Assembly: GCA_902528515.1 (NCBI GenBank)
Contig: CABZTD010000001.1
Span: 1-64,000, forward strand
DNA length: 64,000 nt
DNA from: K189A clade bacterium
GTDB lineage: Bacteria; Pseudomonadota; Gammaproteobacteria; Pseudomonadales; Azotimanducaceae
Direction of reading: 5' to 3'
Numbering within the stretch: the first letter of the stretch is position 1; each line of letters begins with the position of its first letter. Positions 26,994-35,221 of this stretch are shown here, piece after piece. Under the pieces are notes generated by a model. It was given only the letters and a program-made list of their open reading frames with translations, made no database searches and was not told the DNA's origin. The translations under genes were made by a program, and so were the position numbers.

Positions 26994-27054
26994 GTCACAT
27001 AACAATTGCACCTAGGGAAGAATCTTCATGTCTCGAAGCAGCAAAGAAAACCAA

Positions 27055-27678
27055 ATGGGTGTTTTCGACACTATGTATAACTGCCGCGCCATGAGGCGAT
27101 TGGATAGCAGAGCGGTTCCCGGAGAATTGCTGTGCGAGTTGGTGAGCGCGGCTAATCAGGCACCTTCAGGTTCTAACACCCAGGGTGCGCGCTGGATTGT
27201 CGTTACCGACGCTGAGGTGAGACGACGTTTGGCCGATTTGAACCGTCAAGGGGTTGAAACCTATTTGGCACCGCTGATAGAAAACCCAGGTAGCCTATCG
27301 CACCAGACCAGCGATAAGCGTCAGCGCATGGTCGACGCTGTGGTATGGCAAAAAGAACACATGCACGAAATTCCAGCGCTTATAGTCGCCTGCATGGAAT
27401 TCGGCGCTCCAGCCACCAACGATATGATTGCCCGGGGTAACGGGTCCATATGGCCAGGTATTCAGAATTTACTGCTTGCCGCAAGGGCCCTAGAACTTGG
27501 AGCAGCACCAACAACTTTGGCGCTGAATGATCGCAAAGCCGTCGCCGAAGTACTGCATTTGCCGGAAACCATGGCCGCCTATGCACTGATTCCCGTCGGC
27601 TACCCTCTGGGTAAATTTGGCCCGGTCACGCGCAAACCGTTAAAGGAGATCATGCGCTTTGATCGTTGGTCGGATTAA
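27055..27678 (+). CDS. Nitroreductase family protein
   Basis: MGVFDTMYNCRAMRRLDSRAVPGELLCELVSAANQAPSGSNTQGARWIVVTD...GSIWPGIQNLLLAARALELG. Start could be 27028 or 27055. Confidence 0.87.
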   Translation: MGVFDTMYNCRAMRRLDSRAVPGELLCELVSAANQAPSGSNTQGARWIVVTDAEVRRRLADLNRQGVETYLAPLIENPGSLSHQTSDKRQRMVDAVVWQKEHMHEIPALIVACMEFGAPATNDMIARGNGSIWPGIQNLLLAARALELGAAPTTLALNDRKAVAEVLHLPETMAAYALIPVGYPLGKFGPVTRKPLKEIMRFDRWSD

Positions 27679-27742: not shown

Positions 27743-28068
27743 GGCTCCGTAGTTCAATGGATAGAACGATCGCCTCCTGATTAATGTTGGGTCATCGGTT
27801 TGGAAACGATCGATGAGATGCATTCAAATTCGGGGAAACCTGTACTCGTAATAAAGCTACTGGTTAACGAGCATGGCAATCCCGAGCCAAGCCAACGCTT
27901 TGTTTTAGTGTTGGAAGGTGTAGAGACTTAACGGATGCAGCCTACCGCTTGGCACCAACTAAGCCATGGCTAAGAGAAAGTCCAGACCACAAACGCCCTC
28001 GGGCGGCTGCGAAAGCAGTAGCGGGTATGAAGCGATAGATACAGGTTCGACTCCTGTCGGGGCTACCA
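27743..28068 (+). tRNA. tRNA-Arg(CCU), interrupted by a group I intron; exons 27743-27778 and 28030-28068 (CCA encoded)
   Basis: 5' exon GGCTCCG TA GTTC-AATGGATA-GAAC G ATCGC CTCCT; 3' exon AA GCGAT AGAT ACAGG TTCGACT CCTGT CGGGGCT A CCA. Acceptor (two G-U), D, anticodon (ATCGC/GCGAT) and T stems all pair once 27779-28029 is removed. Confidence 0.92.
27779..28029 (+). ncRNA. Group I self-splicing intron (IC3-like) in the anticodon loop of tRNA-Arg(CCU)
   Basis: 5' exon ends in U and the intron ends in G. Core resembles bacterial tRNA introns: P/Q GGCAATCCCGAGCCAAGCC, R GGTGTAGAGACTTAACGG, S AAGAGAAAGTCCAGACC; GNRA hairpin CTGCGAAAGCAG near the 3' end. No ORF inside. Confidence 0.92.
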
Positions 28069-29963: not shown

Positions 29964-32207
29964 TCACGAACGATACTTCTCTACTTGAACCAAGCATGTT
30001 TGCGCACTGGGCCCTTGGGCCAGATGAGATGTGCCCTTGTCTCTAGTGAGAACATTTGGATTCCCATTAAGTTCGATACCAGTAACCGGACAGGGTTTGA
30101 ACCAAGCACCAGTTGGCAGCGACACCGTGTCTCGTCGCATTCGAGCATTCAGAGCAAGTCCTGCCAAGCACGCCCCCCTAGGGTTGAACACACGAACCAC
30201 ATCCCCGGCTTTGAGATTCCGCTCTTTCGCCGCTTCAGGGTGCATCGTAATCACTTCATGGCCTTCGATTTTGCTCGCTTGGCTATGAGCGCTATGGTCG
30301 AACTGGCTGTGTAAGCGATTTTTGGGTTGGGGTGAAAGCAGATGCAAAGGAAAAGCGTCTCGATCTAGCTCTAGCCACTCTAAGGGCGTCATCCAAACCG
30401 CTTGTCCTGGACAATCTAGGTAATCGAAGCTTGCCACGGTCTCCGAGAAAAGCTCTAACTTGCCGGACGGCGTTGCCAACGGGAAATGCGCCGGATTTTC
30501 CCGAAAATTCGCGAGCCAGTCGCGCACGCGTGGCTCGTGAGGCAATTGATATACCCCCTGAGACTCCCAATCCTCAAAAGAAGGCAGCTCGAAGCCTTGG
30601 CCCTGGGCCATTACCTGAGAACGCTGCCAGATGTCTTCTATCCACTCACGCTCGCTTTTATTTTCTGTGAAGGCGTCCTCGAATCCGAGCACCGCTGCGA
30701 GGCCAGCGAATATCTCATGATCCGAGCGCGCTTCGTGCTGCGGCTGTATCGCTTGCTGCATAAAGTGAGCGTAGGGATCGTGGCTAGATGCACAAATATC
30801 GTTACGCTCTAGAGAAGTGGTCGCCGGAAAGACGATATCGGCCCATTGGGCGATAGGTGTCCACCAAGGCTCATTGACGATCACGGTATCAGGTTTGCGC
30901 CATGCTGAGACTAGTCTGTTGAGATCCTGGTGATGATGAAATGGGTTACCGCCAGCCCAGTAAATTGCCTTGATCACGGGATAGGTGATCGCTCGACCAT
31001 CGTATTGGACATCATCACCTGGGTGAAGAAGCATGTCAGAGATACGCGCGACAGGAATAGCGAAGCCTGTAGGGTTTCGGCCCTTTGGAAATGTTGCCCA
31101 GTTAAATCTTTTGTATTCTGAGCCAACAAATGCCTCAGCACTGTAGCCAAAGCCAAAACCACCGCCGGGCAATCCGACTTGACCTAGCATTGAGGCTAAA
31201 GTGGCAAGCATCCAGTAAGGTTGTTCTCCATGATCGCCACGTTGCAACGACCATGCCGCAGCTACAAACGTTCGTTTACTTGCCATTCTGCAGGCCAACG
31301 CAACTATGTCTTCAGCGGCCAAACCACAAATTGAAGATGCCCACCGAGGGGTCTTAGCAATTCCATCGGATCTGCCGAGCAAATAATCTTTTACCTTTGA
31401 ATAACCTACACAGTGGCTATCCAGAAATCTGGTGTCTGCCAAATTCTGAGTTTCTAGAACATGAGCAATGCCGAGCATAAGAGCAACATCAGTGCCAGGC
31501 AGCGGCGCTAGCCAAGTGGCACCGAGACTCGCCTCAGTGTCGTCAGCGATGGGCGAGATACTGACAAATTCAGTACCGGCCTTATGCGCTCGATCGAGAT
31601 CAAGAGCAGTGCGGTGCTCGGTAACGCCGCCATATGCCACTTGAGCATTTCTCTTGGGCAATCCGCCAAAGGCGACGAAGAGCTGGGTATGGTCAATGAT
31701 GTTTTGCAGTGTCGTCTGTTGCAACTCCATCTGTGGCCAGGGCGCTACAACGTGGGGAAGAATTACCTGAGCGGCCGCCGTGCTGTAGGAATTCATAGCG
31801 CGCGTGCATCCGCCCATTAGATTTAAAAATCGATGAAGTTGCGATTGTGCATGGTGGAACCGACCCGCGCTTGCCCACCCGTAAGAACCACCAAATATCG
31901 ACGTGTTACCGTGTTCGTCCGCTACTCGACGAAGCTCGTTAGCCGCCATTTCTAACGCCTCATCCCAAGGCACGTCGAAAAATTCGTCGCTACCTCGGCG
32001 GCAGCGCTGTCGATCGCCGCCCTCAAGCCACCCTTTGCGAACAGATGGTCGTTTTATGCGTTCCCCATGCTGAATGCCATCAAGGAGAACGTTGCCAATT
32101 TCTGAGGGCTCTGGATCTTCATCAACCCCGCTGACGCCAACGATACGCCCATCCTCTACCTCGATGTTGTAAACCCCCCATTGAGTCGCGTTGCGATAGC
32201 GTTTCAT
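29964..32207 (-). CDS. Molybdopterin-dependent S/N-oxide reductase (BisC/TorA/DmsA family)
   Basis: GSYGWASAGRFHHAQSQLHRFLNLMGG...KAIYWAGGNPFHHHQDLNRL...VIVNEPWWTPIAQWADIVFPATTSLERND...SPQPKNRLHSQFDH. Confidence 0.9.
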   Translation of the reverse strand: MKRYRNATQWGVYNIEVEDGRIVGVSGVDEDPEPSEIGNVLLDGIQHGERIKRPSVRKGWLEGGDRQRCRRGSDEFFDVPWDEALEMAANELRRVADEHGNTSIFGGSYGWASAGRFHHAQSQLHRFLNLMGGCTRAMNSYSTAAAQVILPHVVAPWPQMELQQTTLQNIIDHTQLFVAFGGLPKRNAQVAYGGVTEHRTALDLDRAHKAGTEFVSISPIADDTEASLGATWLAPLPGTDVALMLGIAHVLETQNLADTRFLDSHCVGYSKVKDYLLGRSDGIAKTPRWASSICGLAAEDIVALACRMASKRTFVAAAWSLQRGDHGEQPYWMLATLASMLGQVGLPGGGFGFGYSAEAFVGSEYKRFNWATFPKGRNPTGFAIPVARISDMLLHPGDDVQYDGRAITYPVIKAIYWAGGNPFHHHQDLNRLVSAWRKPDTVIVNEPWWTPIAQWADIVFPATTSLERNDICASSHDPYAHFMQQAIQPQHEARSDHEIFAGLAAVLGFEDAFTENKSEREWIEDIWQRSQVMAQGQGFELPSFEDWESQGVYQLPHEPRVRDWLANFRENPAHFPLATPSGKLELFSETVASFDYLDCPGQAVWMTPLEWLELDRDAFPLHLLSPQPKNRLHSQFDHSAHSQASKIEGHEVITMHPEAAKERNLKAGDVVRVFNPRGACLAGLALNARMRRDTVSLPTGAWFKPCPVTGIELNGNPNVLTRDKGTSHLAQGPSAQTCLVQVEKYRS

Positions 32208-35200
32208 GATCCGAAGCGATACCTGAGCTTTATCGTAAGCTGCTCAGCCAAAGGATCTCTTAGCGCGTCGGTAAAAAGACTATCGAAAGAATCGCTTACG
32301 CTCTCCTGCCGACCATTCAGCGTGTACACTACGTACAGATCTGAAAGCGGCGCAATCTGCCATCGATATCGAAGCTGCAGAGATAAGTTGGAAAGAGCAA
32401 AATCCTCACTTCTGGCGATACTGTCATTCACCGCCGTCAAGGGGTCACCATTGACCTGCAGCTGGTAATTCGCTCGGCGCTTTGCGCGTATCGCAACCCA
32501 TTGTGTGGACAGTTTGATCTGATGATTTACAGCAGGAAAGTATTCAAGCTGGAACCGAGGCCGCCACTCGTTTGTTTGATAAGTCGCAAAATTAATACCA
32601 TCCCGCCACAATAACCAACCGGCCCGATCGACAAATCCAATGCCAATTCCCAAGTTTAAATTGTCTCGAGGACGCCAGTTCGCACCGACCGCCGCCGCAA
32701 CCTGCGCACCGGACAGCTGCTCATCTTCTCGGTAAAAATTTATTTCATAGCTAAAGGGTTTAGCTCGGTCCGTTTGATATTTGCCTTTTAATCGGCTGCG
32801 ATCTCCCAAGCGATAAGTGCCGTTACCTCTACTTTCAAAGTCTTCATCACGCGCTGGGAAAAAAGCTGCACTAAGCTCGACCTTAGATTGATCAAAAAGG
32901 TCTACCTTAGAGTCGACACCAATCGCTTTTCGAACATACTCCCCTACCGAATTTCGCTCTAAACGAAACCAGTAGCCCACGTAGCTTTTTCGGTAGCGGT
33001 TTGAAGTTGATCGATTAATCTCGTATCGACCGTTGGCGCCACGCAAATTATTGCGTCGAAGATACCCTAGGTCATTAATATTAAGGTCTTGATCATAGTG
33101 AGAGTAACCAATGCGTAATCTCCTCCCTTTACCAAAATCTCGCCCAATATCCACAAATCCACCAAATCCATCGCGACGCTCATCCGCTGATGAGAATAAA
33201 AACTGACCATCTACCTTCCATTCTCCCCTCGCAGTTAGGTAGTGGTAATCAACACCATGTGCTTGCGTCTCTTGGTCAGGGTGACTGGTTAGAGTAGAGA
33301 GCAAGCCTATAGCTCGATAATCGCCTGCCTTCGTCTTATCCTCATAGAGAGCTCTGGCAACACCATATTCTGTCCCTTCTTGCTCGAATCTCTGACCATC
33401 AGCCTCATACGAGACCTGGTCCTCAAAAGCGCCAAGAATTCCATACCGCAGAGCTCCAATCGAGCCAACTGTTTTCAATGCTCCCTCGAGTTCCACAGGC
33501 TTTTGACGCTCCAGGTCGCTAAGCCGGATTCCATCGGGTAATTCCGGATCTCGCCCTATCCCGCCAATACGACGAGTATTGAGGAGTGTTGTGGGTTTAC
33601 CTCCCTCAGCTCGCGGGGTTGCAGTAAATACCTCAATGCCTTCTTGAAAAAACAAACGTTTTTCTGGGAAAAAAGTCTCGAAAGCTCCCAAATTAACAAC
33701 GACGTCGTCGCTTTCTACAGAGCCAAAGTCTGGCTTAAATGCTGCTGTTGCCTGGAAATTCGTGGATGGTCGCCAAAACAAATCGGCCCCAATCTTGTTA
33801 CTGACATCGCCTCGAACAAAATCATTCGTTGACGAGAGGTATGGAAAGACACTCCAGTTCTGAACTGGAGCCACGCCATCGAGCATCAGAGGCTGCATTC
33901 GCGACATAAACAGGGGTTGCGTTCTCGGCAAGGCCGGAAGACTCCAATCCTCATCAAGGTGAGCAACTTTGCGAGATAGATATACCTTAATCGTACGCTG
34001 ACCAGCGTTTTGTGGCATGGCAACTTGAGACCAAGGTAGGAAAAACTCGGCACTCCAACCCGTTTTAGTAAGCTGGGTGCCCGAATACCAAGCCCCGTCC
34101 CAATCCCTGCTGAACTGGCGCTCCGGAAGCAACGTCCCATCAGATTGACTTCCGCCGAGCGCGACAGTCATCCAATAACCGTAGCGACCTTCACCTGAAG
34201 TATCGAGATACACCCCGACGCTGTCCCTTCGAACATAGGAATCACGGCTTGATAAGCGACGAACCAGCGTTTCGGCTGGTTGCTCCATATCGATGCCAAC
34301 ATAAAGCCCTTTTTGGGTGTAGAAAGCTTTTACCAACGTGCGATAGGCGGGCTTGGCAAAGGTATCGGGATCGTCCACCAAAAAATTGTCAGCGCCCGGC
34401 AGCGATGCCCAAATTGTTTCTTGGAGCCTGCCATCAACAGCAAATCCTTCTGGAACAGTCTCACGCCGGGGCAATGTCACGGGCATATCCAGTGAGAATT
34501 CTAGGATTTTTTCTGGTGAATATGCTGGTACTGCGTCTTTGCTTGTGTTCTTTTTTTGGGGTTCTGAATTGGGCGGAAGCTTGGGGCGGGTTTGGTTGAG
34601 AGACACGGCTAGATTTAGATGCTCGAAGGGCGGCGCTCTGGCCTCGCGCCGAAGCTTATTAAGCTGATAGCCCTCAGGCGCAGTTTCGGGAATTAGCGGT
34701 ATGGAATTTTGAATTGGCGCGTTGTTTTCTGGGGCGAAAGTGTCTTCCGTGCCGAGATCTATATTCTCATCAAACTCAAGCTCATCATCCCACTCGTCAT
34801 ACCAGTCGCGGTCCCAATCGCTCCCTGAAGAACTGGCCTCATAGCCCGATAAATCTCCAGATAACAGCGATTCCCTCGAGCTCGATGCTTCATCCAGATT
34901 AGATGCGCGTTGCTTCAATGCTTGGGGGCCGTCGCTCCAAATCCAGCCTGCGTTCAGGCCATTAGCGGACAATGTCTTTTGCGCCCTTTTAGCCTCTCTT
35001 TGGGTCAGATATGGACCTGCCATGACGCGAAAAAAATAACCCTTATCTGTTCGCGCGCCGTATATGGCGAAAGCTTGTTCACTCCTTGCCTGTGTTTTGA
35101 TCAGAGCAGACTCAGCACTGTCCCGATTCTTGAAGCTGGCAACGGAGATCCAATATTCGGCTGCCGCAATGACCGGCGCAAAGACGCCAAGTAGGAACAC

Positions 35201-35221
35201 TAAGAAGCTTTGGAATTTCAT
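32204..35221 (-). CDS. SPOR-like N-terminus fused to CBM9-like/DUF5916-type outer-membrane beta-barrel protein
   Basis: Signal peptide; AAEYWISVASFKNRDSAESALIKTQ...FFRVMAGPYLTQREAKRAQKTLSANG (SPOR-like); FAVDGRLQETIWASLPGADNFLVDDPD...KAFYTQKGLYVGIDMEQP; PDFGSVESDDVVVNLGAFETFFPEKRLFFQEGIEVF (DUF5916-like); C-terminal LTIKLRYRFGS. Confidence 0.78.
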   Translation of the reverse strand: MKFQSFLVFLLGVFAPVIAAAEYWISVASFKNRDSAESALIKTQARSEQAFAIYGARTDKGYFFRVMAGPYLTQREAKRAQKTLSANGLNAGWIWSDGPQALKQRASNLDEASSSRESLLSGDLSGYEASSSGSDWDRDWYDEWDDELEFDENIDLGTEDTFAPENNAPIQNSIPLIPETAPEGYQLNKLRREARAPPFEHLNLAVSLNQTRPKLPPNSEPQKKNTSKDAVPAYSPEKILEFSLDMPVTLPRRETVPEGFAVDGRLQETIWASLPGADNFLVDDPDTFAKPAYRTLVKAFYTQKGLYVGIDMEQPAETLVRRLSSRDSYVRRDSVGVYLDTSGEGRYGYWMTVALGGSQSDGTLLPERQFSRDWDGAWYSGTQLTKTGWSAEFFLPWSQVAMPQNAGQRTIKVYLSRKVAHLDEDWSLPALPRTQPLFMSRMQPLMLDGVAPVQNWSVFPYLSSTNDFVRGDVSNKIGADLFWRPSTNFQATAAFKPDFGSVESDDVVVNLGAFETFFPEKRLFFQEGIEVFTATPRAEGGKPTTLLNTRRIGGIGRDPELPDGIRLSDLERQKPVELEGALKTVGSIGALRYGILGAFEDQVSYEADGQRFEQEGTEYGVARALYEDKTKAGDYRAIGLLSTLTSHPDQETQAHGVDYHYLTARGEWKVDGQFLFSSADERRDGFGGFVDIGRDFGKGRRLRIGYSHYDQDLNINDLGYLRRNNLRGANGRYEINRSTSNRYRKSYVGYWFRLERNSVGEYVRKAIGVDSKVDLFDQSKVELSAAFFPARDEDFESRGNGTYRLGDRSRLKGKYQTDRAKPFSYEINFYREDEQLSGAQVAAAVGANWRPRDNLNLGIGIGFVDRAGWLLWRDGINFATYQTNEWRPRFQLEYFPAVNHQIKLSTQWVAIRAKRRANYQLQVNGDPLTAVNDSIARSEDFALSNLSLQLRYRWQIAPLSDLYVVYTLNGRQESVSDSFDSLFTDALRDPLAEQLTIKLRYRFGS

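Follow-up and report, generated by a model that had tools for sequence, protein, structure and literature searches.

An IC3-like group I intron in the tRNA-Arg(CCU) gene of a K189A clade gammaproteobacterium

An interrupted tRNA-Arg(CCU) gene

The window, that is, the whole stretch of 64,000 nucleotides analysed here (positions 1 to 64,000 of contig CABZTD010000001.1), comes from the genome assembly of a K189A clade bacterium of marine type (G000; 2.13 Mb in 89 contigs, 75% complete) and carries a tRNA-Arg(CCU) gene whose two halves are separated by a 251-nt insert. The locus comprises the following features.

27028-27678, + strand: nitroreductase-like gene directly upstream of the tRNA (context only), common to 13 of 14 intron-bearing genomes
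27743-28068, + strand: whole tRNA-Arg(CCU) gene, intron included, with a 75-base product after intron removal
27743-27778, + strand: 5′ exon with acceptor, D arm, anticodon stem and C32 U33 C34 C35 U36, the same in the intron-less genes of G032 and G022
27779-28029, + strand: group I intron of 251 nt, without an endonuclease ORF, last base G28029, delimited by RF00028, ARAGORN and empty sites in relatives
28030-28068, + strand: 3′ exon, from A37 to the encoded CCA

The 5′ exon reads GGCUCCGUAGUUCAAUGGAUAGAACGAUCGCCUCCU and the 3′ exon AAGCGAUAGAUACAGGUUCGACUCCUGUCGGGGCUACCA. Excision of 27779-28029 yields a regular tRNA with the anticodon CCU and the splice point after U36; this product matches at 75 of 75 positions the intact gene of the congeneric genomes G032 and G022, which scores 69.4 bits as a tRNA, in agreement with the original prediction that the halves form a complete tRNA once the insert is removed. 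Moving the join by one or two bases still leads ARAGORN to call CCU, but position 37 then becomes G, and the junction position is fixed because A37 suits an ANN-decoding tRNA (t6A37).

With introns allowed, ARAGORN reported tRNA-Arg(cct) at 27743-28068 with a 251-nt intron and identical boundaries, which, together with the exact empty sites, bears out the predicted split. The further expectation that standard finders overlook the gene held only for default settings: default ARAGORN and a scan of the window at Rfam gathering thresholds listed neither the tRNA nor the intron, whereas the intron option of ARAGORN recovered the exact boundaries. tRNAscan-SE 2.0 is not designed for such intron-split genes, to which its authors ascribe the lack of fMet or Ile2 tRNA in 36 genomes (PMC8450103). 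Because tRNA searches and Rfam scans at default settings overlook the gene, annotations of such genomes are left without this Arg tRNA and probably without an essential Ile tRNA, described below. A promoter scan upstream of tRNA-Arg(CCU) found nothing.

Group I identity and predicted fold

The Rfam family RF00028 (Intron_gpI) matched the insert end to end at 43.3 bits, with E values of 7.7e-10 locally and 8.1e-10 against the whole genome; despite falling under the Rfam gathering score of 50 bits, this match, which the original prediction had proposed as a check, is not due to chance. P1 to P9 could be assigned, comprising the P3-P8 and P4-P6 domains and the P3/P7 pseudoknot; the 5′ site carries a U·G pair, and the intron ends in G. 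The elements are arranged as follows.

27776-27791, + strand: P1, CCU^GAU (27776-27781) with GUUGGG (27786-27791), U36 opposite G27789; CCU/GGG invariant in 13 homologues
27792-27816, + strand: P2 with inner hairpin, 27792-27797 with 27811-27816; two-sided changes at three pairs
27820-27938, + strand: P3, 27820-27825 with 27933-27938; compensatory changes at two pairs, in G014
27830-27885, + strand: P4, capped by P5/P5a, 27830-27834 with 27881-27885; P4 invariant, P5a with two-sided changes in some homologues
27892-27914, + strand: P6 hairpin; two-sided changes at 6 of 6 pairs
27925-27982, + strand: P7, GACUU (27925-27929) with AAGUC (27978-27982), invariant in 13 homologues; presumably the guanosine site, by analogy with group I introns
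27939-27971, + strand: P8 with variable P8a, 27939-27942 with 27968-27971; two-sided changes in both
27994-28018, + strand: P9 hairpins, two-sided changes in both stems, second loop GAAA at 28011-28014

The GGG guide in P1 complements the anticodon CCU, and the loop strand of P1 is slightly longer in the window intron than in most relatives. The pairing of U36 with G27789 and the final base G28029 are invariant across the 13 homologues, as anticipated for a splice after U36 and an intron ending in G, and the core segments singled out originally (27875-27893, 27917-27934 and 27972-27988) are nearly invariant. Minimum-energy folding of the precursor did not yield the group I fold, which is to be expected of a pseudoknot.

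The fold was assigned on the window sequence, and its pairs were then counted in 13 introns and their exons, aligned by sequence alone. Across the 82 named pairs, 93% of cells pair, compared with 29-44% when the partners are slid, although a structure drawn on the window sequence is favoured over its slid versions in this count. Two-sided changes occur at 34 of the 82 pairs against 17.3 expected from shuffles, with none of 500 shuffles as high. The covariation is contributed by P2, P3, P5a, P6, P8, P8a and P9 together with the acceptor, anticodon and T stems of the tRNA, and even the anticodon stem, which spans the intron, still pairs through two-sided changes in homologues. P4 and P7 never vary and are thus uninformative in this respect. 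Covariation and family match thereby corroborate the group I identity first proposed for the insert.

The intron displays traits of subgroup IC3, being a small tRNA intron that lacks the P5abc extension, has a short hairpin as P5a and bears GAAA both in P9 and in the region of P2; the assignment as IC3-like is based on this resemblance to tRNA introns already described rather than on a subgroup model. No ORF of at least 80 aa lies within the 251 nt, consistent with the predicted ORF-less state and setting the intron apart from the mobile homing-endonuclease class.

Taking fold, boundaries and conservation together, we are highly confident that the locus is a tRNA-Arg(CCU) gene in which an IC3-like group I intron without an endonuclease is inserted after U36. 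Judging from the chemistry of its family, this intron would be removed by two guanosine-started transesterifications. The precursor RNA would fold into P1 to P9, with the guide GGG holding the anticodon CCU and the U·G pair placed at the 5′ site. Exogenous guanosine docked in P7 would attack after U36, and the freed U36 would in turn attack after G28029, ligating the halves into the mature tRNA.

That the element is instead a decayed intron in a dead tRNA gene is very improbable. The source genome also encodes tRNA-Arg(UCU), which might read AGG and so render tRNA-Arg(CCU) dispensable, and the RF00028 score lies below the Rfam cut-off; however, the exons are identical to intact genes of relatives, compensatory changes have accumulated among homologues in the tRNA stems, P2, P3, P6, P8 and P9, and P4, P7 and J8/7 are unchanged. 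A second tRNA-Arg(CCU), which the original prediction had named as marking this copy as a pseudogene, was not found in the source assembly at 75% completeness. A genuine intron that is unable to self-splice and depends on a host protein deserves somewhat more weight, since maturases or host factors are required by certain group I introns (PMC3984707, PMC7717549), but it too seems unlikely, as no protein is needed for splicing of the tRNA-Arg(CCU) intron of Bartonella (PMC7717549).

Distribution and empty sites within the genus

The genus sample comprised 40 genomes, which we searched both with the spliced 75 bases and with the whole interrupted gene. The interrupted gene is present in 14 of them (G000, G033, G059, G001, G029, G012, G011, G058, G016, G017, G005, G021, G014 and G024), with introns of 228-314 nt that always lie between U36 and A37. 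Besides the two identical intact genes in G032 and G022, an intact gene at 87-96% identity occurs in eleven further genomes, and an intact-type gene in G027 is cut by a contig end; neither form was recovered in twelve genomes, which incompleteness may explain. In G024, an assembly break lies inside the intron, where two contig ends (L086, L096) overlap by ~120 bases.

The interrupted gene sits behind the same nitroreductase-like gene in every carrier except G014, whose flanks gave no match in this comparison, and most intact genes sit at other loci. The intact gene of G036 (96%) follows a gene that precedes the nitroreductase gene in G058 and G016, and itself precedes a gene whose product end resembles that of the window ORF at 32204-35221; G036 thus looks like an empty site at a broadly corresponding place.

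Within the clades G000/G033/G059/G001/G029/G012 and G058/G021/G016/G017/G005, the branching of the introns is largely that of a tree built from RpoD DNA, on which the intron state requires three changes. Descent with some loss and a small number of gains both fit this distribution, and the intron appears to have been passed on mostly by descent in the genus, being absent or lost in some lineages. A genus with both intron-bearing and intron-less species thus offers a good setting for studying gain, persistence and loss of endonuclease-less introns.

The most diverged intron, that of G014 (L054 1436-1825; 314 nt), resides in a diverged tRNA at another locus; its P3 and the stems of that tRNA show compensatory changes, and it could be a separate acquisition.

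A second intron in tRNA-Ile(CAU)

The source genome contains a second group I intron, of 266 nt and scoring 81.8 bits, located after U36 of a tRNA-Ile(CAU) gene behind rpoD (L001 1476-1818, contig G000:C3). Given that the other two CAU tRNAs of this genome (L025, L014) resemble initiator and elongator Met, L001 is probably its only Ile(CAU) gene, within an incomplete assembly, and its splicing is probably essential. The tRNA-Ile(CAU) intron is carried by ~19 congeneric genomes. The Ile(CAU) intron of L129, from marine gamma proteobacterium HTCC2089 isolate FRAM18_bin322, nests within those of the genus, which places its host in the Gammaproteobacteria.

Like the Arg intron, the gammaproteobacterial tRNA-Ile(CAU) introns, including L001, are group I introns inserted after U36, and the presence of both at this position in one genome could suggest that the Arg(CCU) intron arose in the genus when the Ile(CAU) intron moved into another tRNA gene. 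We rejected this origin as highly improbable: the two introns share 53% identity, differ in their P7/P3 sequences, with a longer 3′ part in L001, and belong to lineages far apart in the intron tree, and a single clade of the Arg and Ile introns of the genus is rejected (p-AU 0.026). That unrelated introns interrupt two tRNAs of a single genome at an identical anticodon position adds to the value of the genus for study.

Relationship to other tRNA-Arg(CCU) introns

The window intron is genuine and belongs to a known kind, tRNA-Arg(CCU) introns having been described previously in other bacterial classes. Those of the alphaproteobacteria form a described family, in which the intron of Bartonella bacilliformis splices in vivo and in vitro (PMC7717549). 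Two-step splicing started by guanosine and ending in exon ligation has been shown for this Bartonella relative; the same paper refers to Reinhold-Hurek and Shub 1992 and to Paquin et al. 1999, the latter, as cited there, on alphaproteobacterial tRNA-Arg(CCU) introns. No paper on Arg(CCU) introns of Gammaproteobacteria was found in a search covering mainly open-access literature, which is no proof of novelty.

The alphaproteobacterial introns (Agrobacterium, Bartonella BbgpI, other Rhizobiales, Acetobacteraceae) occupy the same site after U36 of the same tRNA and share with the window intron the guide core UUGGG, the core motifs and the lack of an ORF; they are 215-252 nt long. In contrast, they belong to another class and a separate clade, with 59-66% identity in the pairs compared. 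At least two other families of the same order also have Arg(CCU) introns, represented by three loci (L233, L234, L236) that share tRNA, site and order with the window intron but fall into a separate clade, with 59-61% identity for the two compared; their sisterhood is neither supported nor rejected (p-AU 0.303). The Azoarcus-type betaproteobacterial tRNA-Ile(CAU) introns, for example L215 of Propionivibrio, resemble the window intron in their compact architecture and in the GAAA loops of P2 and P9, but differ in tRNA and guide sequence and show 61% identity. Crystal structures exist for the Azoarcus tRNA-Ile(CAU) intron (PMC3984707).

In a tree of 105 introns over 201 columns, the Arg introns of the genus form one clade (100/98), separate from the alphaproteobacterial (100/97), cyanobacterial (98/92) and other gammaproteobacterial (99/94) Arg(CCU) clades. 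The tRNA-Arg(CCU) group I introns thereby gain a further well-supported clade, one that belongs to neither alphaproteobacteria nor cyanobacteria. On the weak ground of 201 columns, AU tests rejected none of five combinations joining Arg(CCU) clades (p 0.15-0.38), including that of the genus with the alphaproteobacteria (p-AU 0.235), and we therefore do not claim a separate origin. Several separate origins are possible on these sequences. Only tentatively do we consider that different IC3-like introns may have colonised the CCU site several times, in alphaproteobacteria, in cyanobacteria and twice in this order, with the guide GGG each time, so that the likeness of site and guide would reflect re-targeting and convergence, not descent.

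Group I introns in other bacteria

A core pattern scan of named genomes yielded at least 115 loci, with host tRNAs assigned by script. Among the matches listed, the hosts of Arg(CCU) introns are cyanobacteria and such alphaproteobacteria as Agrobacterium, Neorhizobium, Bartonella, Gluconobacter and Skermanella, Leu(UAA) introns are widespread, introns in CAU tRNAs are found in many groups, including beta- and gammaproteobacteria, and introns in further tRNAs appear in Patescibacteria and archaea.

The original prediction had regarded a gammaproteobacterium as a less common host, a view that does not hold: 50 of 369 sampled Gammaproteobacteria genomes (~13%) contain an Intron_gpI match at E<=1e-6, mostly in tRNA genes. 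Among the 29 gammaproteobacterial loci read, 26 lie in tRNA genes, mostly Ile(CAU), with some Thr(UGU) and Leu(UAA) and one with the anticodon CUU, and three lie in 23S rRNA. Five loci (L273, L275, L278, L281, L284) have introns after position 36, four in tRNA-Thr(UGU) and one in the tRNA with anticodon CUU.

Other insertion sites were also seen. A group I intron at L050 ~1468-1830 (G049, from another family of the order) interrupts an apparent tRNA-Leu(CAA); its insertion point, seemingly between positions 32 and 33, is unusual for the anticodon loop. The intron at L239 ~1350-1690 (G156) precedes the anticodon of an Ile-like CAU tRNA, lying between positions 33 and 34, the usual site being after 36. 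In one 23S rRNA gene (L294 ~1100-1900; G598:C1 320016-320733), two near-identical group I introns lie ~67 bases apart, and G466 (L298) has two adjacent 23S intron matches with a LAGLIDADG-like reading frame upstream.
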